From: Tabrizicola sp.
GTDB taxonomy: Bacteria > Pseudomonadota > Alphaproteobacteria > Rhodobacterales > Rhodobacteraceae
DNA length: 38,259 bases
Reading direction: 5' to 3'
Assembly (NCBI RefSeq): GCF_016792905.1
Contig: NZ_JAEULP010000089.1
Span: 1-38,259, forward strand
The position numbers and the translations under genes are program-made. Positions 13,978 through 35,966 of the stretch are shown in pieces (the stretch's first letter is position 1; each line of letters begins with the position of its first letter). The notes under the pieces were generated by a model. That model searched no databases. It had not been told where the DNA came from and saw only the letters and a program-made list of their open reading frames with translations.

Positions 13978-14658
13978 TCACTTGCACCCTCCAGTCGAGA
14001 AACTGACGGGACCGAGCCTGTTTGACAACTCATTGTCGAAAATTGCTCCGCTCTTCCCGCTCAATCGCCTGTGCGGATTCGTGTAGCTACACAACCACCT
14101 CAACGCCCCCTCAACCCGCCCCTCCGTCACCGCCTCCCGTGTGATCTCCAGCGTCACCGCCTTCAACCTCACCCCCTCGCCAAACACCGCCGTAAGGCCC
14201 GTCGGCTCCACCAATTGCACCGTCTCCGGCTTGGTGATGTCATCGAACGTCACCAGCATCGGGATCAGATCGTCGGTCAAGGTCACAAGCTCCGTCTGCC
14301 CGGGCATCTCGCGCAGCCATTCGCCCCGCGTCATGCCCTTGAACTGATCCTTTGCCGCCCGGAAGAACAGCTCCTCACTGTCACCCATCAGCGCAAAGAG
14401 GTATCTGCCCGGCAGAACCTCAACCACCGCTGCCTCGCCCGTCAAATCATAATGGACCTCGGTGCCGCTCATGATCTGGCCACCTGAGTAGTAGTCCACC
14501 CGCACTTCAACGACCGACGAACCCGTGACCTCACCTCCCGGCGTCTCGACCACCAGCGTCAGCTTCTGCCGCCAGCTATGCGTTTCGGGCATTATAATCG
14601 CCCAAGCCAAAGCAAACATCACGGCAACAATCGCCGAGACAACCACAACCGTCTTCAT
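13978..14658 (-). CDS. unknown membrane-anchored or exported protein
   Basis: 226 residues. I do not recognise a family. The N-terminus MKTVVVVSAIVAVMFALAWA is a hydrophobic signal-anchor (about residues 2-22); no clear signal-peptidase site or lipobox follows. The rest is polar with beta-rich stretches (KLTLVVETPGGEVTGSSVVEVRVDYY; AAVVEVLPGRYLFALMG), suggesting an extracytoplasmic beta domain, and two late cysteines (in WLCSYT and the C-terminal GGCK). The 12-base palindrome GTGTAGCTACAC at 14081-14092 is in its coding sequence. It stands alone, convergent with uvrC; upstream lies a 361-base gap that must carry its promoter. Confidence 0.7.
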   Translation of the reverse strand: MKTVVVVSAIVAVMFALAWAIIMPETHSWRQKLTLVVETPGGEVTGSSVVEVRVDYYSGGQIMSGTEVHYDLTGEAAVVEVLPGRYLFALMGDSEELFFRAAKDQFKGMTRGEWLREMPGQTELVTLTDDLIPMLVTFDDITKPETVQLVEPTGLTAVFGEGVRLKAVTLEITREAVTEGRVEGALRWLCSYTNPHRRLSGKSGAIFDNELSNRLGPVSFSTGGCK

Positions 14659-14833
14659 CCCAGCCCACCACCCTTAACAGCACCGCCTCACCCTACCACA
14701 CCCCTACTCCCCCGCCCCCTCCGAAACCCCTGACCGTTCATCTGTCCCCAAATATCCCCGCCGGAGGCATCCGCCGCCCAGCCCAGGCACTCCCCCCACC
14801 ACCTCAGCACACCAGAAGCCCCAAGCGCCGCCC

Positions 14834-14878
14834 TTCCCCCCTCCGTGGGGAGGAGATGGGGGTGGGGGGCACCCGGCC
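14834..14878. repeat. GC-rich interspersed repeat, copy 1
   Basis: A 45-base element, CCTCC/GGAGG stem then a GGGGGTGGGG tract and CACCCGG. A clearly related copy of about the same length is at 25473-25517. Such short GC-rich intergenic repeats are frequent in alphaproteobacterial genomes. Confidence 0.6.
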
Positions 14879-14929
14879 AGCCCCGATTCGCGACGGATGG
14901 TTAACGGCCCCCGCGTGCACCGCGCGTAG

Positions 14930-14969
14930 AGACGGAAGGAAGACGCAAGCAAGACGGAAACAAGACGCC
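14930..14969. repeat. degenerate 11-bp tandem repeat
   Basis: Three full units and a partial one, read on the plus strand: AGACGGAAGGA, AGACGCAAGCA, AGACGGAAACA, AGACGCC. AGACG is invariant. The 11-base period equals about one helical turn, so a protein could bind the units on one face. Lies about 270 bases upstream of the envelope gene start at 14658. Confidence 0.7.
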
Positions 14970-15019
14970 GTATCTACAGCCAACCCCTTGATCTAACACA
15001 CCGAACGCCGCACCCGGGT

Positions 15020-16021
15020 TCACTTCACCACGAACCCATGCGCAAACGGGTCGCGGTCGTCGATGAAGATCGTGTTGATCCCCGTCTGCCGCGCCCAGCC
15101 GGCGATGGAGGGGATGATGGCGGGCTTTCCGGCCACCGTCGCCGCCGCCTCGACCCGGCCCTTGAAGATCGACCCGATGATGCTCTCATGGTGGAACTCG
15201 TCCCCCACCTTGAGCTTCCCCTTCGCCGCCAGCTGCGCCATCCGGGCCGAGGTTCCCGTCCCGCAAGGGCTGCGGTCAATCGCTTTTTCCCCATAAAACA
15301 CGGCGTTACGGGCATGGGCGCTAGGCACCGTCGGCTTGCCGGTCCACAGGATATGGCTCAGCCCCCGGATCGCCGGATGCTCGGGATGCACGAAGTCGTA
15401 CTTCGCATTCAGCGCCGCCCGCAGCTTCGGCGACCAGCCCACCAGCTCCCCAGCCGTATGGTCCGCCATGTCGCGAAACACCTTCTGAGGCTCGACGATG
15501 GCATAGAAATTGCCGCCATAGGCCACGTCCACCACCACCTCGCCCAGACCCTCGACTTCCGCCGTAAGCCCTTCTGCATAAAGGAAACCCGGCACATTGG
15601 TCAGCCGCACTTCCTCGACAAACCGGCCTTCCTGTATATACGAAACCTCCACGCGCCCTGCCGGTGCATCCACCGCCAACCGTCCCGGTTCGCGAGGCGT
15701 GATCAGCCCGTTCTCGATCCCCATCGTCACCGTCCCGATCAACCCGTGCCCGCACATTGGCAGACAGCCCGAGGTCTCGATGAACAGCACCCCCACGTCG
15801 CAATCGGGCCGGGTCGGGGGATAGAGGATCGACCCCGACATCATGTCATGCCCCCGCGGCTCGAACATAAGTCCGGTCCGTATCCAGTCGTAATCCTTCA
15901 GGAAATGCGCCCGGCGCTCCAGCATCGTCGCCCCCTCCAGCCGGGGTCCGCCGCCAGACACCAGCCGTACCGGGTTGCCGCAGGTGTGACCGTCGAGGCA
16001 GGAGAATGTATATACGGCCAT
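15020..16021 (-). CDS. 4-hydroxyproline 2-epimerase
   Basis: 333 residues, proline-racemase superfamily. Converts trans-4-hydroxy-L-proline to cis-4-hydroxy-D-proline, the first step of bacterial hydroxyproline use. Both catalytic cysteines are present: Cys90 in MCGHG and Cys253 in DRSPCGTGTSA. Two cysteines mark an epimerase/racemase rather than the trans-3-hydroxyproline dehydratase, which has Thr at the second place. The neighbours, an FAD dehydrogenase and a dihydrodipicolinate-synthase-like deaminase, fix the pathway; the set resembles Sinorhizobium meliloti hypRE/hypO/hypD. It starts 1 base after the dehydrogenase stop. GTATATAC occurs twice in it, one copy only 6 bases into the gene. 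Confidence 0.93.
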   Translation of the reverse strand: MAVYTFSCLDGHTCGNPVRLVSGGGPRLEGATMLERRAHFLKDYDWIRTGLMFEPRGHDMMSGSILYPPTRPDCDVGVLFIETSGCLPMCGHGLIGTVTMGIENGLITPREPGRLAVDAPAGRVEVSYIQEGRFVEEVRLTNVPGFLYAEGLTAEVEGLGEVVVDVAYGGNFYAIVEPQKVFRDMADHTAGELVGWSPKLRAALNAKYDFVHPEHPAIRGLSHILWTGKPTVPSAHARNAVFYGEKAIDRSPCGTGTSARMAQLAAKGKLKVGDEFHHESIIGSIFKGRVEAAATVAGKPAIIPSIAGWARQTGINTIFIDDRDPFAHGFVVK

Positions 16022-16022
16022 G

Positions 16023-17255
16023 TCAGAACCTTTGCGGCGAGAAGGGGGTCAGGTCGACCGGAGGCGTCTGGTCGGTCAGCAGGTCCGCCACCAGCCGGGC
16101 CGTCCCTGCGCTTTGGGTCAGGCCCAGGTGGCCGTGCCCGAAGGCGTGGATCACCCGGGGGCTGGCCTTCGACCGTCCGATGGCGGGCAGGCTGTCGGGA
16201 AGAGAGGGGCGGAAGCCCATCCATTGCGTCCCGCCCCCGGTCTTGAGGTCTGGCAGAAAAGCCTTTGCTTTTCGTAGCATAGCCTCGGATCGCTTGTAGT
16301 TCGGCGGAAGTGACAGGCCCCCCAGTTCAACCGCCCCACCCACGCGGATGCCCGAGGACAAGCGCGAGATTACGAAACCATGTCCGCCAAACGTCATCTG
16401 GCAGCGCAGGTCAAAGGCCCCCGGCGGCAGGGTGGTATTGTATCCCCGCTCGGTTTCCAACGGGATTCGTTCTCCCAGGCTCGCCGCGATCCGGTGCGAG
16501 AAGGCCCCGGCGGCGATCACCACCTTGTCGGCGCTCAGGGACTTGCCATTGGTGCGTATATACACACCCGACTCGTGCGGCTCCAGTCGCGTCACCTCGG
16601 CTGTTAGGATGGTCCCGCCTTGCGCGCGAAATCTGTCGGCGAGGGCAAGCACATAGTCTTTCGGATCGGCGATCGAGAACCAACCGGGCGTGAAGGTGCC
16701 CTTGATGAACCGAGGCGAAAGGCCAGGTTGCAGCGCCGCCATATCCGCCGCCGTCATATGCCGGAACTCGATCCCATGCGCCTCGCGCGCCTGCCAACCG
16801 GGCAGCGAGGCGCGGAACTCCGCCTCGCTTTCGTAGACCTGCAGGTTGCCATCCTTGCGCAGCATCCCAAGCGTGCCGGTGGCGGCCAGAAACGGCTCCA
16901 ACTCCGCCCGGGAGAGGTCCATCAGCCTTGTCTGAGCGGTGGTGGAGGCGGCAACGGCACGGGGCGAACAGGCGCGCCAGAAGCGGACAAGCCAGGGTGC
17001 GATCTGCAAGGCATAGGCAGGCGGGATGCTGAGTGGCCCCAGCGGGTCCAGCAGCCATTTCGGCGCCTTGCGCAGGATGCCGGGCGAGGCGAGCGGTAGG
17101 ATGTCGGTGAAGGCAAAGGCCCCGGCATTGCCTGCCGAGGCGCCCGCGGCTGGGCCTTCCCGGTCTACCACCGTGACCGAAAGCCCCCGCGCCTGAGCCA
17201 TCAGCGCTGTCGAAAGCCCGATGACTCCGGCGCCGATGACGATGACCTCCGCCAT
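16023..17255 (-). CDS. FAD-dependent cis-4-hydroxy-D-proline dehydrogenase (DadA-type)
   Basis: 410 residues from ATG 17255 (MAEVIVIGAGVIGLSTALMA); the start follows the deaminase stop by 4 bases. The FAD-binding GAGVIG motif is at residues 8-13, and the DAO-fold features GNAGAFAF, AAGAFSH and FGHGHLGLTQSAGTA are present. By context it oxidises cis-4-hydroxy-D-proline to delta-1-pyrroline-4-hydroxy-2-carboxylate and passes electrons to the respiratory chain, like HypO of S. meliloti; as a lone protein it would be called D-amino acid dehydrogenase. A GTATATAC copy encodes Tyr-Ile inside it. Confidence 0.88.
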   Translation of the reverse strand: MAEVIVIGAGVIGLSTALMAQARGLSVTVVDREGPAAGASAGNAGAFAFTDILPLASPGILRKAPKWLLDPLGPLSIPPAYALQIAPWLVRFWRACSPRAVAASTTAQTRLMDLSRAELEPFLAATGTLGMLRKDGNLQVYESEAEFRASLPGWQAREAHGIEFRHMTAADMAALQPGLSPRFIKGTFTPGWFSIADPKDYVLALADRFRAQGGTILTAEVTRLEPHESGVYIRTNGKSLSADKVVIAAGAFSHRIAASLGERIPLETERGYNTTLPPGAFDLRCQMTFGGHGFVISRLSSGIRVGGAVELGGLSLPPNYKRSEAMLRKAKAFLPDLKTGGGTQWMGFRPSLPDSLPAIGRSKASPRVIHAFGHGHLGLTQSAGTARLVADLLTDQTPPVDLTPFSPQRF

Positions 17256-17259
17256 GGCC

Positions 17260-18219
17260 TTATGCGGCGTATTTCCGCGCGTCCGGCTGCTTGGCCCAGT
17301 CGGCATACCAGGCGTCGAACAGCTTCAGCTGTGCTTCGATGAAGCCCTTCTGGCTGGCCGACAACTGGTCATCGGCGTTGAAGTGGTGCGTATAGGCAGC
17401 CTCGCCGCGCAGAAGCATCATGTGCTTGAAGAACAACACCAGATCCGGGCCGGCATCGACTTCGGACAGAACCTGCATCGCCGAGTCCAGTTCGAACGCC
17501 AGCCGCCGCGCCTCGGCGTCGCCCTTCTGGGCGGCCTTGCACAGCGACACCAGATGCAGCACCTCGCGCGGGAGGACGTTGCCGATCCCGGTGATCGCGC
17601 CATCGGCGTTGCAGTTGACGTAGCCGTGGTAGACTGCCGTATCGACACCGATCATCAGCTTCAGGTCGGGCGAAGCCCCGGTGATCGCGTTCGCCGCATA
17701 GGACAGGTCGTCATAGCCGCCGAATTCCTTGAAGCCGACGAGGTTCGGATGCTCGGCCTGCAGCTGGAAGAACAGGTCGGCCTTGGTCGAATAGCCGTAA
17801 TACGGGCTGTTGTAGATCACCGCGGGCAGGGTCGGGGCCGCCGAGAGGACCGCCTTGAAATGCGCCCGCTGCGCCGCGACCACGGTGCCGCGCGACAGAA
17901 GCCGGGGAATCACCATCAGCCCATGCGCGCCGACCTTCTGGGCATGGGCGGCAATGGCGGCGGCAGTGGCGGTGTTCACCGCGCCGGTGCCGACGACAAC
18001 CTTGATCCCGGCCTTCACGAGCCGCTCCACCCCTTCCATCCGCTGTTCGGTGGTCAGAAGCGGCCAATCGCCCATCGAGCCGCAGTAGACGACCGCCGAC
18101 ATGCCCAGGCCCACCAGTTCCGTCGCCTTGGCGACCAGCGTGTCAAAGTCCGGCGTGCGATCCGCCTTGCAGGGCGTCATCAGGGCCGGAATCGTGCCCG
18201 AGAAGATATCCGACTTCAT
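17260..18219 (-). CDS. 1-pyrroline-4-hydroxy-2-carboxylate deaminase (DHDPS family)
   Basis: 319 residues. Start ATG 18219 has a near-perfect ribosome site (AGGAGG, 18227-18232, 7 bases away). The dihydrodipicolinate-synthase fold is clear; Tyr136 (VIYNSPYYGY) and the Schiff-base Lys164 (VGFKEFGGYDD) are in place. The enzyme converts the dehydrogenase product to 2-oxoglutarate semialdehyde plus ammonia. First structural gene of the operon after the regulator. The aldehyde dehydrogenase that would finish the route to 2-oxoglutarate, and a transporter, are not in this window. Confidence 0.9.
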   Translation of the reverse strand: MKSDIFSGTIPALMTPCKADRTPDFDTLVAKATELVGLGMSAVVYCGSMGDWPLLTTEQRMEGVERLVKAGIKVVVGTGAVNTATAAAIAAHAQKVGAHGLMVIPRLLSRGTVVAAQRAHFKAVLSAAPTLPAVIYNSPYYGYSTKADLFFQLQAEHPNLVGFKEFGGYDDLSYAANAITGASPDLKLMIGVDTAVYHGYVNCNADGAITGIGNVLPREVLHLVSLCKAAQKGDAEARRLAFELDSAMQVLSEVDAGPDLVLFFKHMMLLRGEAAYTHHFNADDQLSASQKGFIEAQLKLFDAWYADWAKQPDARKYAA

Positions 18220-18282
18220 GTTCCAATCCTCCTGTCGCGGCCGATTCCGCATCCTGAGAACAGCATAGGCATTGTATTTAGT

Positions 18283-18292
18283 TTGTCGACAA
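18283..18292. promoter_or_regulatory. candidate GntR operator upstream of the hydroxyproline genes
   Basis: TTGTCGACAA is a perfect palindrome in the A/T-rich gap between the gntR stop and the deaminase start. It fits the TNGT-N3-ACNA pattern of FadR-subfamily GntR sites. A near copy (TTGTCGACAG) is in front of gntR. Inferred; no binding data. Confidence 0.5.
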
Positions 18293-18333
18293 GATTTTAA
18301 TACGTGTTTTCAGTTGGATAAAAGAAGGGCGTT

Positions 18334-19035
18334 TCAGATTTCGATGTTCTGCCGCAAATCTCGGGCCATCACGTCCTGGATTTGGCGGACGATCTTGTCG
18401 GCATGTTCCTTCGCCAGCCGATCGCATGTATCTACATCCCGCGCAGCGACGGCCGCGATGATCGCCTCGTGCTCCTGTATATACGGATGCGGCAAGGCAG
18501 GCTCGAAGCTGGGGTAGTAATACAGCCGCAGGATACGCCGCCCCTCATCCAGCAGGCGCGAGAAAAGCTGGAGGTAGTAGGGGTTCCGACCCGCCTCGGC
18601 GATGGCGACGTGAAAGTCGCGGTTGAGCTGGATCATCCCCGCCGTGTCACCCGCAATCACAGCCTCCGCAAAGATCGCCTGCCGGGCGCGGATCGCCTGA
18701 AGATCGCCCGCGTCATGGAATTGCGCCGCCAGCCGGGTGGTGACGCGATACATCAGCGTCAGGGCATCGAAGAAATGGTGCAGGTTCGGAAAGTCGATCT
18801 GGCTGACGACGGTGGAACGGTTCGGCAGCAGCGTCACCAGCCCGTCGCCCGCCAGCCGGACCAGCGCCTCGCGGATCGGGGTGCGCGACATCGACAGCCG
18901 CTCGGCCAGGCCGATTTCGTCAATCGGCTCACCCGGTTGCAGGACAAGGTTCAGGATCTCGTCCCGCAGCGTGTCATAGACGAACCGTGCCCCGGTGCCG
19001 CGCTTGCGTTCCTGCTGGTCTTCTGTGTCAGTCAT
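18334..19035 (-). CDS. GntR-family (FadR subfamily) regulator of hydroxyproline use
   Basis: 233 residues from ATG 19035 (MTDTEDQQERK); a longer open frame to 19191 enters the EVE-domain gene. Winged-helix motif at about residues 45-75 (LAERLSMSRTPIREALVRLAGDGLV), then an all-helical FCD ligand domain with RDFHVAIAEAGRN and HEAIIAAVAARD, which carry the metal-binding Asp/His residues of that fold. It precedes the catabolic genes on the same strand and probably represses them in the absence of a hydroxyproline-pathway metabolite, like HypR in S. meliloti. Two TGTCGACA palindromes flank it. Confidence 0.9.
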   Translation of the reverse strand: MTDTEDQQERKRGTGARFVYDTLRDEILNLVLQPGEPIDEIGLAERLSMSRTPIREALVRLAGDGLVTLLPNRSTVVSQIDFPNLHHFFDALTLMYRVTTRLAAQFHDAGDLQAIRARQAIFAEAVIAGDTAGMIQLNRDFHVAIAEAGRNPYYLQLFSRLLDEGRRILRLYYYPSFEPALPHPYIQEHEAIIAAVAARDVDTCDRLAKEHADKIVRQIQDVMARDLRQNIEI

Positions 19036-19046
19036 GGCTCGCCCCG

Positions 19047-19057
19047 CTTGTCGACAG
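19047..19057. promoter_or_regulatory. second candidate GntR operator, before gntR
   Basis: CTTGTCGACAG, core TGTCGACA, lies 12 bases upstream of the gntR ATG and repeats the sequence at 18283-18292. Suggests autoregulation. The 8-base core also occurs by chance inside coding sequence, so moderate to low confidence. Confidence 0.4.
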
Positions 19058-19090
19058 AAGGAATACAGCACGCCGTTCGCGGCGCAAGCT

Positions 19091-19510
19091 TCAGGGCTCC
19101 AGGCCACCCATCCGGCAAATGATCGCCCATTCCTCGGCGCTGACCGGCTGCACTGACAGGCGCGAGTTGTTGACCAGCACCATCTTTTCAAGCCCGGGCG
19201 TGACCTTGCAGTCTTCCAGGCTGATCGCCCGCTTCAGGGGCTTGACCGCCTTGATCCAGACGCAGTCCCAGCGCGGGTCGTCCGTCGTGCTGTCCGGGGC
19301 GCTTTCCCGGCAAACCTCGACGATTCCAACGATCTCTTTCCCGACGTTGGAGTGGTAGAAGAACCCCCGGTCGCCGATCTTCATCGCCCGCATGTTGTTG
19401 CGCGCCTGATAGTTGCGCACCCCGTGCCATTCCTCGCCCTCATCGCCCTTGGCGATCTGGTGGTCCCAGCCCCAGACGTCGGGTTCGGATTTGAACAGCC
19501 AATGGTTCAT
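19091..19510 (-). CDS. EVE-domain protein
   Basis: 139 residues from ATG 19510, overlapping the yciI-like stop (ATGA). The EVE fold, related to PUA and YTH domains that bind modified bases in RNA or DNA, is recognised by WLFKSEPDVWGWDH, EWHGVRNYQARNNMRAMKIGDRGFFYHSN and IVGIVEV. The family is often called thymocyte nuclear protein 1-like. Last gene of the tsaD-gpsA-yciI run; stand-alone EVE genes are common here and the function is unknown. Not part of a restriction cluster. Confidence 0.92.
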   Translation of the reverse strand: MNHWLFKSEPDVWGWDHQIAKGDEGEEWHGVRNYQARNNMRAMKIGDRGFFYHSNVGKEIVGIVEVCRESAPDSTTDDPRWDCVWIKAVKPLKRAISLEDCKVTPGLEKMVLVNNSRLSVQPVSAEEWAIICRMGGLEP

Positions 19511-19779
19511 CCGATCACCCGCTTCCATTCCTGGATCATCACCGACTGGAACAACCCCGCCTTGCCATAGGGGTCCGACGCCGCCCAGGTCTCGGCCTCC
19601 GCCTTGGAGTCGACCCCCAGGACCAGCAGGCTGCCGCACATCTGCCCCGCCGCGTCGATAAAGGGACCGGCCTGCTCGACCACGCCGGTTTCCTGTATAT
19701 ACGCGAGATGCGCCGCGCGGTTGTCGACACGGGTTTGCAGGGCGTTCGGTTTATCGAGGCAGATCAAGGCGTAGCGCAT
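19507..19779 (-). CDS. YciI-like protein
   Basis: 90 residues starting MRYALICLDKPNALQTR. Two ATGs are 6 bases apart (19785 and 19779). AGGA directly touches the first, while its 6-base distance suits the second, so I chose 19779; the other would add Met-Thr. YciI domains have a ferredoxin-like dimeric fold with a conserved His and Asp (here RAAHLAYI and PFIDAAGQM); enzymatic roles are known only for some members. Encoded between gpsA and the EVE gene with overlaps on both sides. Contains GTATATAC at 19695-19702, encoding Tyr-Ile. Confidence 0.9.
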   Translation of the reverse strand: MRYALICLDKPNALQTRVDNRAAHLAYIQETGVVEQAGPFIDAAGQMCGSLLVLGVDSKAEAETWAASDPYGKAGLFQSVMIQEWKRVIG

Positions 19780-19781
19780 GG

Positions 19782-21823: not shown

Positions 21824-21867
21824 GGCCGCCGTTGCATGAAGGGTTCCCGGCAGGTAACACCGCAGAC

Positions 21868-22608
21868 ATGGCGAGACAATCCGAACTGTTATCCGGGACC
21901 CCGGTCCTGCTGACGCGCCCCAGGGCCGAAAGCGAGGGGTTTGCCGCCGCCCTTACTGCCCGTTTCGGGGACAGGCTGCGTCCCGTCGTCTCCCCCCTGA
22001 TCGCGCCTCGTTACCTGACCCCCGAGATTCCGTCCGGAAACCATGTGGCGGTCGCCTTCACCTCGGCACATGGCGTCGAAGGCGCGCGTCGGCTGGGCAT
22101 CGAACTGCCCCGCCTTGCCTGGTGCGTAGGCCGCAAGACGGCGGCGGCGGCAACGGCTGCCGGCTTTCTCGCGAAATCGGCGGACGGGACGGCAGACGAC
22201 CTTGTCAGGATGATCCGGTCAGAGCCGCCGGATGGCAGGATTCTGTATCTACGAGGTGTAGATACGTCTGGTAACATACTGGAAAAACTAAACGAACTTT
22301 GTATATATGGTGATGTTGCGATAGTGTATGAGCAGCAAGCCCAGCCACTTTCGCCGGAAGCCATCGACTTGCTTCGATCGGCCCGTCCCGTGCTGGTTCC
22401 GCTGTTCTCACCACGGACAGCGCAGCTTTTCCAGAAGGCCCTGCCGAAAGATCACCGCGCCGCACTGTACTTCGTGACCATCAGCAGCTCTGTCGCCGAA
22501 GCCCTTCCAGGCGTCGCTCATGCCGGGCTGATCGTTGCACGGCACCCTGATGCCCCCGGCATGCTTGAGGCCGTCGAAACCTTGCTTGCCGACATGTCAC
22601 CGCCTTGA
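21868..22608 (+). CDS. hemD: uroporphyrinogen-III synthase
   Basis: 246 residues from ATG 21868 ([18 protein letters not shown]); an in-frame ATG at 21832 is possible but close to the tsaD start. HemD closes hydroxymethylbilane with ring-D inversion in heme, siroheme and bacteriochlorophyll synthesis. The family is poorly conserved; [31 protein letters not shown] and the C-terminal [14 protein letters not shown] are recognisable. Residues about 126-155 are encoded by an A/T-rich patch with rare codons and an inverted repeat of GTATCTAC. The next two genes are the Mic60-like gene and hemY, the usual alphaproteobacterial order. Confidence 0.88.
22245..22265. repeat. inverted repeat of the GTATCTAC octamer inside hemD
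   Basis: GTATCTAC (22245-22252) and GTAGATAC (22258-22265) face each other with the 5-base spacer GAGGT, an exact 8-bp-arm inverted repeat within coding sequence. GTATATAT follows at 22301-22308. Confidence 0.8.
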
Positions 22609-22660
22609 ACACTCAGGCGGCCAGTGCTTAGGTTACGCCAGGGACGGAAAGGGCCGCAGC

Positions 22661-25245: not shown

Positions 25246-25294
25246 GGCTACACAGTCCGGATGGGCAGTGCTAAGAGCCCGCCCAGGGAAGAAT

Positions 25295-25370: not shown

Positions 25371-25398
25371 TTCTTCTCTGAAATCCCCGGATATGCAG

Positions 25399-25429: not shown

Positions 25430-25472
25430 GCTTGTAGGACCTATCGCCGCTTGGGACACTTCCATCCCGCGC

Positions 25473-25517: not shown

Positions 25518-25521
25518 CCGA

Positions 25522-27990
25522 TCAGCGTTTCGGCCCCTTCGGCGGCACGAACCGCTTCGATGTATCCCGCGCATCCGCTTTGGGCTTCTCGACCCTCGGT
25601 TTGTCGAAGGGCTTCTTGCCCCCCGCCGCATGGCTCTTGAACCCACCCGGTTTTCCGGCACCCTCGCGCTTCACGAAGGGCCGCGCCTCGTCGCCCTTGG
25701 GGGCATAGGTCTTCTTCGGACGGTCACCATCCTCGCGCGGCCGGAAGCCTTCGCCCTTCGGAGCATAGGCTTTGCGGGGACGCTCACCGTCCTCACGCGG
25801 CTTGAATCCCTCGCTGCGCGGCTTGTAACCCTCGGATTTACCTGCGTAAGGCTTCCGCGCCGGACGCTCCCCGTCCTCACGCGGGGCATGGCCCTCTCCC
25901 CGAGGCTTGTAACCTTCGGTCTTGCCCGCATAAGGCTTCCGCGCCGGGCGGTCACCGTCCTCGCGCGGTTTCCAGCCTTCCGACTTGCCCTTGGTGCCGC
26001 CCTCTGCCCCATGGCTCTTGTAGCCCGCCGCCCGGCCTGGCCTGTCCGCCGGCCCGCCGTGGCTCTTGAACCCCGCCGAGCGCGGAGCGGCCTTCTGGTC
26101 CGGCGACCAGCGCGGCTTGCGCGCGCGATCCTCGTCACCCTCGGGACGCGGCGCGCGTTCCTCGTAGGACTTCCGCGCCGGACGATCATCCTTCCGCTCG
26201 GGCCGCGCCTCCGAAGGGGCCACGCGAGGGCGATCGTCATACTTGGCCTTCGGCTTCGGGGCAGCCTCGGCGACCTCGCCATCCTCCTCGACCACCCGCG
26301 GCGGCTTCGGCACATAGGCCGGTTTCTCCCGCCGCTCGGGCCGCTCTGCCCGTTCCGGGCGCACCGGGCGCTCGAACCGGGGCTTGTCGAAGCGCGGGCG
26401 ATCGAAGTCAGGTTCGCCCTCGATCCGCTCCATCATCAGGCCCTTGTCGAGGTCGATCTGCTGCCGGAACTTGTCCGCCACGCCTTCCGCGATCTGCACG
26501 AAAGTCTCGTCCTCGCGCACCCGGATCGCGCCGATGCTGTCCTTGCCGATGCTGCCCGCATCGCAGATCTTCGGCAGAAGCCAGCGCGCCTCGGCCCGGC
26601 CCGAACGACCCACGCCGATGCGGAACCAGACCGAAGGCCCGAACTCCCCCCGTTCGCGCGGAGCTGATGGCGCAGGCATCGCCGCATCGGTCGACAGCAC
26701 CTCGGGCGCCGATCGCCCCTCGCGCCACAGCCGCACGAAGGCTGCCGCCAGCGCCTCGGCTCCGAACTGCTCCAGCAGGTCGCCCGCGATCCCCGCCTCA
26801 TCGCCCACCGGGGCAGTCAGCGCGGGATGCTCCAGAATGCGCAGGTCGTCCTTCGCCTGCACGTCATCCGCGCCCGGCGCCGGGCCCCATTCCGCCACGA
26901 CCTTCGCGCCCGACAACAGCCGCTGCGCCTTCTTGAACTCGGACGGAGTCACGATCAGCGCCGAAACGCCCTTCTTCCCGGCGCGCCCGGTGCGGCCCGA
27001 GCGGTGCAGCAGCGTCTCGGAATTCGACGGCAGGTCGGCGTGGATCACCAGTTCCAGCCCCGGCAGGTCGATGCCCCGCGCCGCAACGTCGGTCGCGATG
27101 CAGACCCGCGCCCGCCCGTCGCGCAGCGCCTGCAATGCATGGGTCCGCTCCTGCTGGCTCAACTCGCCGGACAGCGCGACGACCTGGAACCCCCGGTTGC
27201 CCATCCGGGCAAGCAGATGGTTCACGTTCACCCGTGTCTTGCAGAAAACGATGGCCGTCCGCGCCTCATAGAAGCGCAGCACGTTGAAAATCGCATGTTC
27301 CCGGTCGCGCACCGCGACAGAGATCGCCCGATATTCGATGTCGACATGCTGCTTCGCCTCGCCCTGCGCGACAATCCGCAGCGCATCCTTCTGGAACTCG
27401 CCCGCCAGCTTCTCGATTTCCTTCGGCACGGTGGCCGAGAACATCAGCGTCCGGCGTTCCGGCGGAGCCGCCGCCAGGATGAACTCCAGATCCTCGGCGA
27501 AGCCCAGGTCCAGCATCTCGTCCGCCTCGTCCAGCACCACGGCCCGGACGCCCGACAGGTCCAGCGACCCGCGTTCGATATGGTCGCGCAAGCGGCCGGG
27601 GGTGCCGACGACGATATGCGCCCCCCGCTCCAGTGCCCGCCGCTCGGTCCGATAGTCCATCCCGCCGACGCAGGTCGCCAGCTTGGCCTGCGCCCCCGCG
27701 TAAAGCCATTCCAGCTCGCGCGCGACCTGCAGGGCCAGCTCCCGCGTGGGCGCAATCGCCAGCGCGATGGGCTTGTCGGCATACAGCAGCACGTCCTGCC
27801 CGCCCAGAATCTCCGGCGCAACGGCAAGGCCGAAGGCCACCGTCTTGCCCGATCCGGTCTGCGCCGAGACCAGCGCGTCGCGCCCGGCCACACCTTCCGC
27901 CAGCACCGCCTCCTGCACCGAGGTCAGCGTCTCATAGCCCTTGTCGGCCAAAGCCTGCGCCAGCGGCGCGGCCACGTTTTCAATCGTCAT
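25522..27990 (-). CDS. DEAD-box RNA helicase with DbpA-type domain and long repetitive basic tail
   Basis: 822 residues from ATG 27990 (MTIENVAAPLAQALADKG). The helicase core has AQTGSGKT (43-50), PTREL (81-85), DEAD (154-157), SAT (185-187), and HRSGRTGRAG (329-338). A DbpA/CsdA-type RNA-binding domain is at about 450-527 (WFRIGVGRSGRAEARWLLPKI). From about 530 to the end the protein is disordered and basic, built from imperfect units such as PREDGERPARKPYAGK and SEGYKPR, repeated several times at 25700-26060. It unwinds RNA, probably in ribosome assembly or cold-stress mRNA handling (CsdA/DeaD-like). The tail is about twice as long as in E. coli CsdA. It likely has its own promoter in the 144-base gap after the upstream phosphatase gene. 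Confidence 0.93.
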   Translation of the reverse strand: MTIENVAAPLAQALADKGYETLTSVQEAVLAEGVAGRDALVSAQTGSGKTVAFGLAVAPEILGGQDVLLYADKPIALAIAPTRELALQVARELEWLYAGAQAKLATCVGGMDYRTERRALERGAHIVVGTPGRLRDHIERGSLDLSGVRAVVLDEADEMLDLGFAEDLEFILAAAPPERRTLMFSATVPKEIEKLAGEFQKDALRIVAQGEAKQHVDIEYRAISVAVRDREHAIFNVLRFYEARTAIVFCKTRVNVNHLLARMGNRGFQVVALSGELSQQERTHALQALRDGRARVCIATDVAARGIDLPGLELVIHADLPSNSETLLHRSGRTGRAGKKGVSALIVTPSEFKKAQRLLSGAKVVAEWGPAPGADDVQAKDDLRILEHPALTAPVGDEAGIAGDLLEQFGAEALAAAFVRLWREGRSAPEVLSTDAAMPAPSAPRERGEFGPSVWFRIGVGRSGRAEARWLLPKICDAGSIGKDSIGAIRVREDETFVQIAEGVADKFRQQIDLDKGLMMERIEGEPDFDRPRFDKPRFERPVRPERAERPERREKPAYVPKPPRVVEEDGEVAEAAPKPKAKYDDRPRVAPSEARPERKDDRPARKSYEERAPRPEGDEDRARKPRWSPDQKAAPRSAGFKSHGGPADRPGRAAGYKSHGAEGGTKGKSEGWKPREDGDRPARKPYAGKTEGYKPRGEGHAPREDGERPARKPYAGKSEGYKPRSEGFKPREDGERPRKAYAPKGEGFRPREDGDRPKKTYAPKGDEARPFVKREGAGKPGGFKSHAAGGKKPFDKPRVEKPKADARDTSKRFVPPKGPKR

Positions 27991-28134
27991 GGATGTCTTT
28001 TCCAAAGGGGGGCGGCTTCTGCGCCCGTACAAGCCAAACGGCCCCTGTCCCTTTGGTGCGGGCCTCCTCGCCCACAATTCCGGAATCTCGACCGTGGGCG
28101 GCCAGTATCCCAATTGCCGGGGGCTGTATAGGCC

Positions 28135-28914
28135 CTATGCCCCGGTCAACCGCGCGACGGCATCGGCATGCAGCTTCGGCGGCAGGGCCAGCACGCCCGC
28201 TGCCATCGCCCCCGGCGTGTTGAACCGGAGCGCATTCCCCAGCCGATCCGTCACCGCTGCCCCCGCCCGCTCCGCGATCAGCGACCCTGCCGCGATGTCC
28301 CACTCCCAGGTGTCGCGCAGGGTAAGCATTCCGTCGAACCGCCCCTCTGCCGCCAGGCACATCCGGTAGGCCAGCGAGGCCCGGAAGCTCCGCGTTATCT
28401 CCGGCACCCCGCCCGGCCATTTCTCCGGCACCAGATTTGCCTTCGTCGTCAGAATGTTGGCCCCCTCCAGCCGCTCGCGCCCGCTGGCCATGATCGGCTG
28501 TCCGTCCTTCATCGGCGAGGCGGTCTCCGAAGCGGTGTATATACGATCCAGCGCCGGTAGATACACGACCGCCGCCGTCACCCGGCCCTGATGCGCCACC
28601 GCCAGGGAATGCGCGAACGACTCTTCCCCCGCCACAAAGGCGCGGGTTCCATCGATGGGATCTACGATGAAGACTGTATCTACAGCCAGCCTCTCGGCGG
28701 AATCCGGCGTCTCCTCCGACAACCAACCGTAACCCGGCCGCGCCGCCAGCAGCCGTGCCTTCAGCATGTCGTTGACGGCGAGGTCGGCCTCCGTCACCGG
28801 CCCGTGCTCGCCCCCCTTGTCCCAGACCTTGTGTTCCCGCCGCCAGAAGCGCAAGGCGATGCGGCCTGCCTCCCGCGCAGCCTCGGTCAAGAGGGCCAGG
28901 TCACGCGCCGGCAA
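28135..28914 (-). CDS. inositol-monophosphatase-family phosphatase (CysQ-like)
   Basis: 259 residues. The IMPase/FIG fold is shown by GPVTEADLAVN, SEE (66-68), DPIDGTRAFVAG (Asp85, Asp88) and WEWDIAAGSLI, which supply the three metal-binding acidic sites. Best guess is 3'(2'),5'-bisphosphate nucleotidase (CysQ, removing PAP from sulfate assimilation), with histidinol or inositol phosphatase as alternatives. The likely start is TTG at 28914, since an in-frame TGA lies 6 bases upstream and no ATG or GTG is available before it; it overlaps the pmbA end by 14 bases. Three copies of the GTA(T/G)(A/C)TAC octamer lie in the gene. Confidence 0.85.
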   Translation of the reverse strand: MPARDLALLTEAAREAGRIALRFWRREHKVWDKGGEHGPVTEADLAVNDMLKARLLAARPGYGWLSEETPDSAERLAVDTVFIVDPIDGTRAFVAGEESFAHSLAVAHQGRVTAAVVYLPALDRIYTASETASPMKDGQPIMASGRERLEGANILTTKANLVPEKWPGGVPEITRSFRASLAYRMCLAAEGRFDGMLTLRDTWEWDIAAGSLIAERAGAAVTDRLGNALRFNTPGAMAAGVLALPPKLHADAVARLTGA

Positions 28915-30244
28915 GGGTCATCCCGTCGATCAGGATGGACGGCACCCGCGTCGACAGATGCGCCCGCGCGTCATTCGCCGGGACGATCCGCAGCAGCATG
29001 TCGCGCAGGTTCCCCGCAATGGTGCATTCATGCACCGGATAGGCGAGCTGCCCATTCTCCACCCAGAACCCCGAGGCCCCGCGCGAATAGTCCCCCGTCG
29101 TCGGGTTGATGGTCGAGCCGATCATCGACGTGACCAGCAGCCCCGTTCCCATCTGCTTCAGCAGCTCCGCACGTCCCACAACCCCTTGGGTCAGATCAAT
29201 GTTCGTCGTCGACGGCGACGGTGGTGCCGAAGTCCCCCGCGACGCATTCGCCGTAGAGGCCATCCCCAGCTTCCGCCCCGTCGCCAGGTCCAGCACCCAG
29301 CCGGTCAACACCCCATCCGCCACGATCTCGCGCCGCCGGGTCGCCAGCCCCTCGCCGTCGAAGGGCCGCGACGACCCGATCCGCGCCCGATGCGGGTCTT
29401 CCACCAGCGACAGCCCCGCAGGCAGCACCTGTTTCCCCAACAGATCGCGCGCCCAGCTTGACCCCCGAGCAATCGAGGTCCCGTTGATCGCCGACAAGAG
29501 ATGCCCCACCAGCGAGGCCGCGACCCTCTCGTCATAGACCACCGGATAGGTGCCGGTCTTCGGCTTCACCGACCCCACGCGCTGCAAGGTCCGTTCCGCC
29601 GCCAGCCGTCCGATCTCCTCCGCCGAGGGCATGTCGGCCGCGTATATACGCCCCTCGCCCGCATAGTCCCGCTGCATCTCGGTGCCTTGCCCGGTGAAGG
29701 CAACCGCCGACAGCGAGGTCGAGGTCCGCCCGTAGCCTCCGGAAAACCCGTTCGTCGCCGCCAGATGCAGCGCCCGCTGGCTGTAGGCCGCCGAGGCCTC
29801 GACCTGGGTGATCCCCGCAGAGTCCAGCGCTGCCGCCTCGACCGACCGGGCCGAAGCCTCCAGCACCGCCGCTCCCGGCTCTCCCGCCGGATCGGCGAGG
29901 TCCAGCGCTCCAACATCCCAACCCGAAGCCAGCTGCGACGCCTCCGCCAGCCCCACGGTCGCATCCTCCGGTGCCTCGCGCGCCATCGCGACCGCTCGTT
30001 CGGCCAGTGCGGTTATGGTGGCGCTTGAGGTATCCGAGGCCGACACGCAGGCCTGCCGCCGCCCGATCAGGACGCGAAGCCCGATCTCCACGCCCTCCGA
30101 CCGCTCCGCCTGCTCCAGCGCGCCCTTGCGGATTTCGATCGATAGCGCCGTGCCGGCCACCGCCAGCGCGTCGGCACTTTCCGCCCCCGCCTTGCGGGCG
30201 GCGTCCAGAAGGGCATGGCTCAGGTCGGAAAGGCTGGGGGTCAT
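28901..30244 (-). CDS. pmbA: TldD/PmbA-family protein PmbA (TldE)
   Basis: 447 residues, the family length. PmbA/TldE is the non-catalytic partner of the zinc protease TldD; the pair processes peptides such as microcin B17 and other substrates. The TldD HExxxH zinc motif is absent, which fits PmbA. KGALEQAERSEGVEIGLRVLIGRRQA, STTNIDLTQG, and SRGASGFWVENGQLAYPVHECTIAGNL are typical. Contains GCGTATATACGC at 29640-29651, a 12-base palindrome, within coding sequence. TldD is not in the window. The 3' end overlaps the phosphatase start. Confidence 0.93.
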   Translation of the reverse strand: MTPSLSDLSHALLDAARKAGAESADALAVAGTALSIEIRKGALEQAERSEGVEIGLRVLIGRRQACVSASDTSSATITALAERAVAMAREAPEDATVGLAEASQLASGWDVGALDLADPAGEPGAAVLEASARSVEAAALDSAGITQVEASAAYSQRALHLAATNGFSGGYGRTSTSLSAVAFTGQGTEMQRDYAGEGRIYAADMPSAEEIGRLAAERTLQRVGSVKPKTGTYPVVYDERVAASLVGHLLSAINGTSIARGSSWARDLLGKQVLPAGLSLVEDPHRARIGSSRPFDGEGLATRRREIVADGVLTGWVLDLATGRKLGMASTANASRGTSAPPSPSTTNIDLTQGVVGRAELLKQMGTGLLVTSMIGSTINPTTGDYSRGASGFWVENGQLAYPVHECTIAGNLRDMLLRIVPANDARAHLSTRVPSILIDGMTLAGA

Positions 30245-30331
30245 CGCGCGGTTCCTGTATTCACCGGGATGAGGTAGCCCCCCCCGCCATCAGGTGCAAG
30301 GCCGGGCAGGCAGGCCACCCGGCTCAGCCGC

Positions 30332-31840: not shown

Positions 31841-31940
31841 GACATATGCCTTTCGGGTTGAATTCGCTGCCGCAACCTTTCTATCTCGTGTCCGGGGCGT
31901 CAAGGGATTCCCCGGTCGGGAAAGCCGGAGGGGTGCGGTC

Positions 31941-32567: not shown

Positions 32568-33511
32568 CGAACAGCTACGACAAAGGCCGCCTGAACCTGC
32601 CCTTCGTCGGCATCTCGACCTTCGGCAAAAACCCCTACCAACCCGACTGGTCGAAGATCGACGCCGACTTCGCAATCCTCGGCGCCCCCTTCGACTTCGG
32701 CACCCAGTTCCGCGCCGGGGCCCGCTTCGGCCCACGTTCGATCCGCGAAGCCTCCACCCTCTTCTCCTTCGGCCACGGCGGCGCCTATGACCACGAAGAC
32801 GACGTGACCTACCTGGAAGGCACCCGCATCCTCGACATCGGCGACGCCGACATCGTCCACACCGATACCGAAACCTCCCACGCCAATATCGAGACCGGCG
32901 TCCGCGCCATCCTCGCCGCGGGCGCGATCCCCGTGGTCCTCGGCGGCGACCACTCCATCAACATCCCCTGCATCCGCGCCTTCGCGGGCCGCCCCCTGCA
33001 CATCATCCAGATCGACGCCCACCTCGATTTCGTCGACGTGCGCCACGGCGTCCGCCACGGTCACGGCAACCCGATGCGCCGCGCCGCCGAACAGGACCAC
33101 GTCAAGGGCATCACCGCCCTTGGCATCCGCAACGTCTCCTCCACCGCCAAGGACGGGTATGACGCCGCGCGCAAGATGGGCGACGACATCCTCTCCGTCC
33201 GCCAAGTCCGTAAGCTGGGCATCGAAGCCACCCTCGCCCGCATCCCGAAAGGCGTCGACTACTACCTGACCCTCGACATTGACGGCTTCGACCCCTCCAT
33301 CGCCCCCGGCACCGGCACCCCCTCGCATGGCGGCTTCCTGTACTACGAAGTGCTGGAGCTGATCGACGGCCTGACGAAGCAGGGCAACATCATCGGCATC
33401 GACCTGGTCGAAGTGGCCCCCGACTATGACCATTCCGGCATGACCGCGATCCTCGCCGCGCAGATCCTGCTCAACACCATCGGGCGCATCGCCCACAATT
33501 CGAAGCGTTAA
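32564..33511 (+). CDS. speB: agmatinase-family ureohydrolase
   Basis: 315 residues. All Mn ligands of the arginase/agmatinase fold are in place: His130 (GGDHS), Asp151, His153, Asp155 (DAHLD), Asp238 and Asp240 (DIDGFDPS). Splits urea from agmatine or a related guanidino compound. The region after DAHLDF (VDVRHGVRHGHGNPMRR) differs from E. coli SpeB, so guanidinobutyrate or guanidinopropionate are possible substrates; the symbol is by family only. Coupled to the crotonase gene upstream and 3 bases from the mscS-like gene downstream. Confidence 0.85.
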   Translation: MTNSYDKGRLNLPFVGISTFGKNPYQPDWSKIDADFAILGAPFDFGTQFRAGARFGPRSIREASTLFSFGHGGAYDHEDDVTYLEGTRILDIGDADIVHTDTETSHANIETGVRAILAAGAIPVVLGGDHSINIPCIRAFAGRPLHIIQIDAHLDFVDVRHGVRHGHGNPMRRAAEQDHVKGITALGIRNVSSTAKDGYDAARKMGDDILSVRQVRKLGIEATLARIPKGVDYYLTLDIDGFDPSIAPGTGTPSHGGFLYYEVLELIDGLTKQGNIIGIDLVEVAPDYDHSGMTAILAAQILLNTIGRIAHNSKR

Positions 33512-33514
33512 CGC

Positions 33515-34807
33515 ATGGAAAAGCTTCAGGTCTGGCTGCAACAGGCCACCGATACCGCCCTCGGCTGGCTCGCCTCGCCCGCGGCGCTCTCGCAATTCGC
33601 TCTCCTGATCCTCGCCTATTTCATCGCCCGCCTGCTGGCCCGCCGCCTGACGCCCATTCTTGAAGGCACCCTGACGCCGAAGCCCGAAGCCACCCACCTG
33701 ATCGCCCGCCTCCGCCGCTTCGCCCTCCTCTTCCTGCCGCTCCTCCTTCCCCTCCTCGCCTACGCTCTGACCGCCGTGGGCGAAGGCCTGACCCGCGCCA
33801 CTTTCGGCACAGGCGAGGTCATCGCCTTCGGCAAGCGCGTATTCCTCTTCCTCGCCGCGCTGGAGTTCGTCCGCAGGGTCCTGCCCTCCGGCTTCCTCAA
33901 ACTGCTGGGCCGCTACGTCCTGCTGCCCGTGGCAGCGCTCTATGCGCTCGGCCTGCTCGACGACGTCACCGACCGCCTGAACGCCGCCCAGGTCAACCTC
34001 GGCAACATCGAGTTCACCGCACTCGCCCTGATCCGCGGTCTGATCGCCGGGTCGCTGCTGTTCTGGCTCGGCTCCTGGTCGAACCACCAGTCGGCCGGCT
34101 ACATCAAGGCGCAACCCGACCTCCGCCCCGCCACCCGCGAGCTGGCGATCAAGGCCAGCGAGGTCGCCATTTTCGGCGCGGCCTTCCTGCTCCTGATGTC
34201 GATCATGGGCATCGACCTGACCGCCGTTGCCGTCCTCGGCGGCGCGCTCGGCGTCGGCATCGGCCTTGGCCTGCAACAGATCGCCGCCAACTTCGTCTCG
34301 GGCATCATCCTGCTCCTCGAAGGCCAGACCACCGTCGGCGACTATGTGGAACTCGACGGCGGCGAGAGGGGAACCATCGTCAAGATGACCGCCCGCGCCT
34401 GCATTCTGGAAACCTTCGACGGCAAGTGGATCGTCATCCCGAACGAGCATTTCATCACCACCCGCGTGGTGAACTACTCCGACCAGGGCAGCGCCAATCG
34501 CTATGAAGCTCTGTTTTCAGTGGCTTACGAGACCGACATAAACATCGTGCCCGATCTGATCGAGCGCGCGGTCTCGAAACTCCCCTTCATCCTGCAACAG
34601 CCAGATGGCCCGGATTGCGAATTGCGCGGCTTTGGCGAAAGCAGCGTCGACTTCGCGGTGGAATACTGGGTGTCCGGCATCGACGACGGCAAGAACAAAT
34701 ACGGGTCCCCCGTCCTTTTCGCGATCTGGAACGCGCTGAAAGAGGCCGGGATCGGGATGCCCTATCCCCACCGCGTCGTCGAACTGCGGAACGCCCCCGG
34801 TGCCTGA
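33515..34807 (+). CDS. MscS-family mechanosensitive channel
   Basis: 430 residues. Several membrane helices at about 25-42, 70-90, 105-122, 135-150, 170-187 and 213-232 precede the pore-lining Gly/Ala-rich helix (about 234-268, ALGVGIGLGLQQIAANFVSG) and the cytoplasmic beta domain (GDYVELDGGERGTIVKMTARACILETFDGKWIVIPNE). Five or six helices, not three, place it with the larger MscS homologues. Opens to release ions and small solutes on hypo-osmotic shock. It begins 3 bases after the ureohydrolase stop; the flavoprotein start overlaps its end. Confidence 0.92.
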   Translation: MEKLQVWLQQATDTALGWLASPAALSQFALLILAYFIARLLARRLTPILEGTLTPKPEATHLIARLRRFALLFLPLLLPLLAYALTAVGEGLTRATFGTGEVIAFGKRVFLFLAALEFVRRVLPSGFLKLLGRYVLLPVAALYALGLLDDVTDRLNAAQVNLGNIEFTALALIRGLIAGSLLFWLGSWSNHQSAGYIKAQPDLRPATRELAIKASEVAIFGAAFLLLMSIMGIDLTAVAVLGGALGVGIGLGLQQIAANFVSGIILLLEGQTTVGDYVELDGGERGTIVKMTARACILETFDGKWIVIPNEHFITTRVVNYSDQGSANRYEALFSVAYETDINIVPDLIERAVSKLPFILQQPDGPDCELRGFGESSVDFAVEYWVSGIDDGKNKYGSPVLFAIWNALKEAGIGMPYPHRVVELRNAPGA

Positions 34808-35966
34808 CGCCCTGGTCATCGGAGCAGGCCCAGCCGGGCTTATGGCCGCCGAAGAATTGTCGAAGACCGGCGCGCAAGTCATTGTTGTCGAGGCCAAACC
34901 CACCGTCGCCCGCAAATTCCTGATGGCCGGGAAATCCGGCCTGAACGTCACCAAGGATGAACCTTGGGAAACCTTCGTCACCCGCTACGATGCCCCGCAA
35001 CTCCTTCCGATCCTTCAGAAATTCGGCCCTGCGGAAGTCCAGGCCTGGTGCCGTGCCCTGGGTCAGGAGGTATATACAGGCTCGTCCAGCCGCGTCTTTC
35101 CCGTCGCGATGAAAGCCTCCCCGCTGTTGCGGGCATGGCTGCAACGCCTGACCTCGCAAGGCGTCGAGATCCGCACCCGCTGGCGCTGGACCGGCTTCGA
35201 CGGCAAGGCCCTCACCTTCGATACCCCGACCGGCGCGCAGAGGCTTACCCCCAAAGTCACCATCCTTGCCCTTGGCGGAGCGAGTTGGCAGCGTCTCGGC
35301 TCTGACGCAGCCTGGGTGCCATGGCTGCGCGAAAAGGGTGTGCAGATCACCGACTGGAAACCCGCCAACATGGGCTTCCGTGTCGACTGGTCGCCGCACA
35401 TGAGCCCATATTTCGGCAAGCCGATCAAGGGTATAGCCCTGAACGCCGGACCCCGCCGCGAGCGTGGCGAATTCGTCCTTTCGGTGAAGGGGATCGAGGG
35501 TGGCGGTATATACAGTATATACAAGTACCTACGCGACGGCGCTCCGCTCGCGCTCGACCTGCTCCCCGACCTCAGCCAGGACCAGATCACCCGTCGCCTC
35601 GCAAACATGAAACCCGGCGAAAGCACCACCAACCGCCTGCGCAAGCTTGGCCTCGACAAGGCGCAGATTGCACTGGTGATGGAATTCGCCCGGCACCAGC
35701 CCTTCGTGCATCTGAAACACCTGCAAATCCCGCTGCAAGGCCCCCGTCCGCTGGACGAAGCCATCTCGGTTGCGGGAGGCGTGTCATGGGACGCCCTGAC
35801 CTCGGATCTGGAACTGAAAGCCCTTCCGGGCACCTTCGTCTGTGGAGAAATGATCGACTGGGAGGCCCCGACCGGCGGCTACCTGCTCACCGCTTCATGG
35901 GCCACAGGCCGCTGGGCGGGGATGGCGGCGCACCGGCACTTGCAACATACCCCGCCCCGGACTTGA
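34800..35966 (+). CDS. BaiN-type NAD(P)/FAD-dependent flavoprotein
   Basis: 388 residues from GTG 34800, overlapping the MscS gene by 8 bases; the codon before any ATG already encodes the FAD motif GAGPAGL (8-14), so the GTG must be near the true start. ARKFLMAGKSGLN (about 38-49) is the HI0933/BaiN/RdsA signature, and the C-terminal GTFVCGEMIDWEAPTGGYLLTASWATGR closes the FAD site. This subgroup (about 390 residues) was described as TIGR03862-like flavoproteins of unknown substrate. It holds three copies of GTATATAC, two in direct tandem. Its stop codon lies in a large inverted repeat, which gives the C-terminus PPRT. Confidence 0.9.
   Translation: MPDALVIGAGPAGLMAAEELSKTGAQVIVVEAKPTVARKFLMAGKSGLNVTKDEPWETFVTRYDAPQLLPILQKFGPAEVQAWCRALGQEVYTGSSSRVFPVAMKASPLLRAWLQRLTSQGVEIRTRWRWTGFDGKALTFDTPTGAQRLTPKVTILALGGASWQRLGSDAAWVPWLREKGVQITDWKPANMGFRVDWSPHMSPYFGKPIKGIALNAGPRRERGEFVLSVKGIEGGGIYSIYKYLRDGAPLALDLLPDLSQDQITRRLANMKPGESTTNRLRKLGLDKAQIALVMEFARHQPFVHLKHLQIPLQGPRPLDEAISVAGGVSWDALTSDLELKALPGTFVCGEMIDWEAPTGGYLLTASWATGRWAGMAAHRHLQHTPPRT
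35506..35523. repeat. tandem duplication of GTATATACA in the flavoprotein gene
   Basis: Two identical 9-base units abut (35506-35514 and 35515-35523) and encode Ile-Tyr-Ser-Ile-Tyr with rare ATA codons. Part of the dispersed octamer family. Confidence 0.85.

Follow-up and report, generated by a model that had tools for sequence, protein, structure and literature searches.

The 38,259-nucleotide contig of Tabrizicola sp. analysed here (the window) carries ten copies of the palindromic octamer GTATATAC, and the question raised by this locus is what keeps so improbable a word in the chromosome. The draft genome (G000) to which the window belongs, as contig C28, comprises 3.79 Mb in 91 contigs; the closest relatives of its tsaD are from Rhodobacteraceae/Rhodobacterales. 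We propose that the word, in its extended form YGTATATACR, is the site of a small ribbon-helix-helix (RHH) protein of the BrnA antitoxin family, which would mark two blocks of the chromosome, one at the origin and one at the terminus of replication. Taken as a whole, we hold this reading to be probable.

All sites reported in the initial annotation are present (Table 1): ten GTATATAC and, among the relatives conforming to GTAKMTAC, four GTATCTAC, two GTAGATAC and one GTAGCTAC. Its estimate of about 66% guanine + cytosine (GC) agrees with the 66.1% of the window, the first 14 kb contain no copy, as it had said (the first GTATATAC is at 15634), and its figure of about 0.1 copies expected against ten seen falls within the range of second-order (0.04) and third-order (0.20) Markov expectations. 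Shuffling of synonymous codons, a control that it had suggested, was run on the window genes (35,865 coding bases, 300 shuffles) and gave a mean of 0.10 and a maximum of two GTATATAC, so that the nine copies found in coding sequence are far above expectation; for the three GTAKMTAC relatives 0.35 copies were expected, at most three were obtained and six were observed. The excess of GTATATAC is real, and neither the encoded proteins nor codon use explains it. Regional AT-richness as the cause was ruled out, as the GC content is 64-69% throughout the window and the reversed word, which served as control, is rare in the genus. The flanking preference, at first read as CTG before and CG or CA after the octamer, is for a pyrimidine before and a purine after, hence the consensus YGTATATACR. 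T..A flanks are commoner at weaker cores (71/114 against 82/210 half-sites; p = 7e-5, calculated from rounded frequencies), as would be expected if the total affinity of a site were under selection.

The word is regional. There are 22 GTATATAC in the genome against two reversed words, and 20 of them lie on three contigs (ten on C28, seven on C60 and three on C43, with single copies on C38 and C44). Origin and terminus were assigned from sequence marks, namely parS, the change of GC skew and a dif-like site. Two parS-like sites were found, both on C43 and one carrying a mismatch; C43 also has genes read by eye as parA and parB. C60 carries a dif-like site at 9831 (three mismatches to the consensus applied) and a GC skew change near 25 kb. 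Gene order in the relative G022 puts the window some 35-76 kb away from parS, and the C43 sites lie to that same side. Mapped in this way relative to origin and terminus, as the initial annotation had advised, the copies cluster at both regions: 13 of the 22 are on the two origin-side contigs (C28 and C43) and seven on the contig with the dif-like site. Neither GTATATAC nor GTAKMTAC was found in six other sampled stretches of the genome (120 kb).

The same arrangement is seen in G022, the best-assembled relative examined (its contigs include three of 1.81, 1.02 and 0.99 Mb), which has 28 GTATATAC. Sixteen of them fall at 262-380 kb of its contig C1 (117 kb) and ten at 381-549 kb of its contig C3 (167 kb), the remaining two lying elsewhere on C1 and on C2; the clustering has p values of 2e-18 and 5e-8, respectively, for blocks chosen after the sites had been seen. 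On C1, parS is found at 309 and 311 kb, just past the turn of the GC skew from minus to plus near 290-300 kb, and on C3 a dif-like site is found at 532 kb, where the skew turns, noisily, from plus to minus. When the weaker forms are included, sites fall largely on one side of each mark: 23/26 of the origin block at 4-69 kb from parS and 10/13 of the terminus block at 19-151 kb from dif. Both blocks are mostly on plus-skew DNA, which suggests that they share one replication arm, one block at its origin end and the other at its terminus end. In G020, 13 of 21 sites are on the parS contig and seven on a contig with a dif-like site; in G008 the parS contig holds 13 of 27 and the dif contig four, with ten spread over four other contigs; the parS contig accounts for 14/23 sites in G001 and 11/17 in G024, two genomes in which a dif-like site was not found.

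Across 25 genomes of the genus, the GTATATAC count is bimodal, 13 genomes having 12-28 copies (motif-rich) and 12 having 0-8 (motif-poor), with 0-4 and 0-8 reversed words, respectively (G018 has eight of each word). In a pmbA tree the 12 motif-rich genomes with pmbA are on one side of a branch (support 92/98). Origin stretches (0.72 Mb) contain 83 GTATATAC and 55 GTAGATAC, against two and one in controls (0.42 Mb), and terminus stretches (0.41 Mb) carry mainly the perfect form (31 GTATATAC vs five GTAGATAC); GTAGCTAC occurs six times in the 1.13 Mb of motif-rich origin and terminus stretches and not at all in the controls. These densities are biased, several stretches having been taken for holding sites, and the two GTATATAC of the controls are the isolated G022 sites around which two control stretches were taken.

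Selection acts on the DNA word itself, a claim of the initial annotation that is supported by the different reading frames in which the octamer falls, by the codon shuffles and by the retention of rare codons inside sites, although the copy at 19695, which it had read as Tyr-Ile codons, is intergenic in the gene calls. In a comparison of coding sites with as many as six motif-rich relatives, counting only cases with an unchanged amino acid, ATA codons were kept in 47/66 cases inside sites against 43/118 outside (Fisher p = 7e-6), GTA codons in 28/35 against 72/196 (p = 4e-6) and CGT codons in 12/17 against 149/610 (p = 1e-4); these p values are optimistic because the species are related. Many sites are conserved between species through rare codons, and two terminus sites are retained in 5/5 relatives. 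The 28537 site is exact in 6/11 motif-rich genomes (own included) vs 0/10 motif-poor genomes with sequence there, and the pmbA site at 29642 in 9/12 (own included) vs 0/11.

The gene that accompanies the excess lies outside the window, at 51580-51867 of C43, about 12 kb from parS and between neighbours that match a proteasome-subunit domain and an AAA_2 domain, read as hslV and hslU. Its 95-amino-acid (aa) product matches, in Pfam, PF14384 only (BrnA antitoxin; 63.3 bits, cut-off 26.1, residues 41-86) and has no match in NCBIfam. Orthologues (72-92% identity) are present in 12 of the 13 motif-rich genomes, the one without being 59% complete, and in none of the 12 motif-poor genomes, where the best matches have E values of 4e-9 or weaker and three genomes have no match; this co-occurrence has p = 3e-6, kinship not being corrected for. 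In the motif-poor G004, G007 and G015, hslV slightly overlaps the next frame, with no such gene between. Before all 12 orthologues an exact GTATATAC stands 109-120 bp from the gene start, invariant in the alignment and joined by at least one further variant copy, and residues 51-61 and 66-82 of the proteins are likewise invariant. A BrnT-like reading frame was found within 1.5 kb at none of the 12 loci, and we therefore speak of an orphan BrnA-family protein and not of a BrnTA system. From these sequence comparisons we consider it very likely that the orphan binds GTATATAC, and through the same word it probably represses its own promoter.

Another candidate binder was rejected, the product of a DUF2267 gene situated some 3 kb away from the C60 dif-like site: a clear orthologue was found in 7/25 genomes of the genus, 4/13 motif-rich and 3/12 motif-poor. 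A weak G003 match was left out of this count, the G024 copy holds a stop, and G041, with coordinates identical to those of G009, is that genome again. The distribution of this gene within the genus is patchy, and three GTATATAY copies (C60 12693-12733; 12 and 21 bp apart) stand directly before the gene.

The proposed pairing of protein and word can be judged independently at the brn loci of other genera. A protein-alignment search of 394 genomes of the family, in which loci were picked by protein similarity alone, gave a match at E 1e-12 or better in 27 genomes, two of them genus members; 30 matches lay outside the genus and loci were obtained for 28. These 28 loci contain 16 GTATATAC in the 14 kb upstream (500 bp before each match) against three in 75.7 kb elsewhere (p = 7e-11). 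Two of the three are operators of neighbouring modules counted again, in the overlapping loci L262 and L281, and the third lies 506 bp upstream (L275). The exact word or a listed variant is found upstream at 22/28 loci, and neighbouring upstream copies are spaced by 13 bp (four times) or 12 bp (once), a spacing matched by the 13 bp of the 22245/22258 pair in the window. A BrnT-like frame adjoins 21 of the 28 loci, 13 of which have the exact word within 500 bp upstream, and 9/10 BrnT-like frames tested match BrnT in Pfam. Because protein similarity was the sole criterion for picking these loci, GTATATAC is in all likelihood the operator used by this BrnA group, and an operator is suggested for many BrnTA modules of Rhodobacteraceae.

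The orphan itself can be followed beyond the genus. In G354, of another genus, it stands at the same place, 13 kb from parS, with four GTATATAC (and one reversed word) in the surrounding 240 kb, three of them within 9 kb, promoter site included; no GTATATAC was found in 147 kb of G354 sampled elsewhere. In four more genera (G435, G202, G187 and G311) the orphan lies beside hslU and near parS, between hslV and hslU in the first three, hslV of G311 being elsewhere; it is preceded by the exact word in G435 and G202, by a weaker form in G311 and by nothing in G187. The short orphans of four other genera (loci L265, L267, L269 and L270), BrnA-like proteins of 82-86 aa encoded beside hslU and near parS, suggest an old link between this regulator and hslVU. 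When a tree was rooted on G354 as outgroup, the three motif-poor genomes G007, G004 and G015 did not group together, several branches being weakly supported. The simplest reading would be that an old orphan at hslVU was lost in some lineages and acquired its larger set of sites in the one that contains the window. For the fuller history, in which a toxin-less antitoxin became a chromosome marker and its operator multiplied from a single promoter copy into some 20 sites at the two ends of replication, with intermediates in related genera, we see the chances as evenly balanced.

Several observations weigh against the pairing of this protein with these sites. Six of the 28 brn loci have no counted form within 500 bp, and three named plasmid brnTA loci (of 903 plasmid records matched), examined as a further check of the operator reading, all lack GTATATAC and so fail that check; the BrnAs of these three are about 40% identical. 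The spacing of close pairs in the chromosome varies (13 bp in 5/28, 9-10 bp in 7/28), and sites turn over, C43 47567 being kept in 0/6 relatives and 16556 in 3/6. The AlphaFold models are weak (mean predicted local distance difference test, pLDDT, 66 and 75) and, as single chains, show helices at about 61-69 and 74-93 and no strand; structure searches of PDB gave no useful match for them, and the ribbon-helix-helix assignment rests on the Pfam match. The motif-rich genomes are one group on the pmbA tree, so a single event may lie behind the within-genus co-occurrence, a pattern that other genes could share. Finally, no site cluster was found in 80-100 kb around the orphan in G435, G202, G187 and G311, which means that possession of the gene need not bring with it a set of chromosomal sites.

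We propose that YGTATATACR and the weaker GTAKMTAC forms would be sites of the small RHH protein of the BrnA family, which has no adjoining toxin partner and would repress its own promoter via the same word. From the single operator that some related genera show, its targets would have increased to 12-28 sites in the genome, gathered for the most part into two blocks, next to the origin and surrounding dif, where bound dimers would most likely mark, bridge or anchor both regions for folding or segregation in a MatP/matS-like manner. If the orphan is indeed the binder, a chromosome-organising role of this kind appears likely. Nine of the ten window GTATATAC and eight of the ten on C43 and C60 lie within called genes (for three of these eight, C60 12705, C60 12726 and C43 51460, a promoter site is the better reading). 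With most of the sites so located, their principal use is probably something other than ordinary promoter control. A nucleoid-type DNA-binding protein is the best fit among the roles first offered for the word.

This genic position also bears on the possibility that the orphan is an ordinary transcription regulator, its genic sites being roadblocks or acting on neighbours and the regional bias reflecting the location of target genes. The word does stand before its own gene, before the DUF2267 gene (three copies) and before the EVE-domain gene, and the four genera just mentioned show the own promoter site only, or none, near the gene; set against the predominance of genic sites and the 26/28 G022 sites held by two blocks, this makes the regulator explanation unlikely. 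The sites could instead be a sponge titrating an antitoxin-like protein, with no structural role. Origin-proximal sites have a high copy number in growing cells, and the weaker sites do concentrate near the origin, in the stretch counts given above; terminus sites are low-copy, yet two of them are kept in every relative compared, and we give the sponge very little probability.

HIP1 of cyanobacteria is an over-represented palindromic octamer that occurs in coding sequence genome-wide, and GTATATAC, being palindromic, over-represented, frame-independent and coding, resembles it in kind. The initial annotation had drawn this likeness and had offered methylation, repair and uptake as possible roles, each of which predicts a genome-wide spread. 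With 20 of 22 copies in 3.79 Mb on three contigs, concentrated at the origin and terminus regions, and an excess that tracks one gene, the likeness fails and these roles are not supported; the regional distribution already contradicts a signal of this kind, to which we assign next to no probability. There remains the case that the word is bound by another clade-specific protein which also controls the orphan brnA, examples being a GntR/FCD regulator and a MerR protein like ZapT. The GntR gene of the window holds two sites, the hydroxyproline cluster is found here in 7/7 motif-rich genomes compared, and ZapT of Caulobacter binds near the terminus, no consensus motif having been found for it (PMC7188993). 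A hydroxyproline regulator would leave the terminus sites unexplained, and the presence of the same word before many brnTA loci of other genera points to BrnA itself, so that such a protein is improbable. We retain the orphan BrnA-family protein as the candidate binder.

Table 1 Copies of GTATATAC and its relatives, and other features, in the window. Kept n/6: exact octamer retained in n of up to six motif-rich relatives compared; strand of the gene is given in brackets.
Feature	Position	Context	Retention or remark
GTAGCTAC (weaker form)	14083..14090		Retained in 0/2 relatives aligned
GTATCTAC (weaker form)	14970..14977	Intergenic	
GTATATAC	15634..15641	4-hydroxyproline epimerase gene (15020-16021, -)	Kept 5/6
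GTATATAC	16008..16015	4-hydroxyproline epimerase gene (15020-16021, -)	Kept 6/6
GTATATAC	16556..16563	FAD-dependent oxidoreductase gene (16023-17306, -)	Kept 3/6
GTATCTAC (weaker form)	18428..18435		Kept 1/6
GTATATAC	18477..18484	GntR/FCD regulator gene (18334-19191, -)	Kept 5/6
GTATATAC	19695..19702	Intergenic, 56 bp before called start of EVE-domain gene (19091-19639, -)	
GTATCTAC	22245..22252	hemD-family gene (21832-22608, +), 13 bp before the 22258 site	Exact 1/6
GTAGATAC	22258..22265	hemD-family gene (21832-22608, +)	Kept 6/6
GTATATAC	28537..28544	Inositol-monophosphatase-family gene (28135-28914, -)	Arg-Ile-Tyr with ATA
GTAGATAC (weaker form)	28557..28564		Kept 1/6
GTATCTAC (weaker form)	28676..28683	Gene strand reads GTAGATAC, Val-Asp-Thr	Kept 3/6
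GTATATAC	29642..29649	pmbA/tldD-family gene (28901-30244, -)	
GTATATAC	35070..35077	HI0933-family flavoprotein gene (34800-35966, +)	Kept 5/6
GTATATAC	35506..35513	HI0933-family flavoprotein gene, first of a pair 9 bp apart	Exact in 2/6
GTATATAC	35515..35522	HI0933-family flavoprotein gene, second of the pair	Exact 4/6, GTATCTAC in the other two
Hydroxyproline-type cluster	15020-19639	4-hydroxyproline epimerase, FAD oxidoreductase, DHDPS family and GntR/FCD regulator	Behind EVE-domain gene
Imperfect 84-bp tandem repeat	25778-25968	3' part of DEAD-box helicase gene	2.3 copies

A second hydroxyproline-type set, distant from that of the window, is found on C43 around 7-11 kb. Another word, TGTCGACA, occurs six times in the whole window, with 0.7 (second-order) or 0.9 (third-order) copies expected. 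A tRNA-Thr was the sole outcome of the Rfam and tRNA scans.

The systems closest to the one proposed here are the BrnT/BrnA type II toxin-antitoxin modules, with which the orphan shares the Pfam family and the word that stands before many brnTA loci elsewhere. It differs from them in having no BrnT-like neighbour (12/12) and about 20 chromosomal sites, and it lacks the TDWERLR segment that is frequent among toxin-paired BrnAs. MatP, the organiser to which we compare the orphan system, has an RHH fold. Like MatP/matS, the orphan system would consist of one protein and some 20 short sites limited to a chromosomal region; the orphan has no assignment to the MatP family, its word is of 8-10 bp instead of 13 bp and its sites are at both origin and terminus, so the likeness is claimed for the way of working only. 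Self-regulation is reported for brnTA of Brucella (PMC11980606), and the promoter GTATATAC of the orphan gene suggests the same. The Ter macrodomain of E. coli, the domain of MatP, has 23 matS in 800 kb (PMC3330122). ZapT, an alphaproteobacterial protein of the MerR family, has ten chromatin immunoprecipitation (ChIP) peaks that are terminus-biased and, like the sites described here, mostly within reading frames; it differs in family and in the lack of a consensus motif noted above (PMC7188993). CdbA of Myxococcus xanthus is a nucleoid-associated protein of the RHH superfamily, the depletion of which disrupts chromosome organisation, and nothing in the parts of its report used here says that it is antitoxin-derived or confined to origin and terminus (PMC10313047). 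MaoP/maoS is a site-specific system of the origin region (Ori macrodomain) of E. coli with a single maoS site (PMC5023128).

Literature searches for GTATATAC as text gave nothing relevant by title or abstract start among the matches listed, and among those listed for BrnA, orphan or domesticated antitoxins, RHH macrodomains, MatP and Rhodobacterales chromosome organisation none was recognised as this system. One word at both origin and terminus is found in none of the published systems compared, as far as the parts of the reports used here extend. If our proposal is true, a single protein marks both regions, and a toxin-antitoxin gene can be the source of a site-specific chromosome organiser; since the proposal names a protein and a site, together with natural genomes that have or lack them, the birth of a macrodomain-type system comparable to MatP/matS would become testable.

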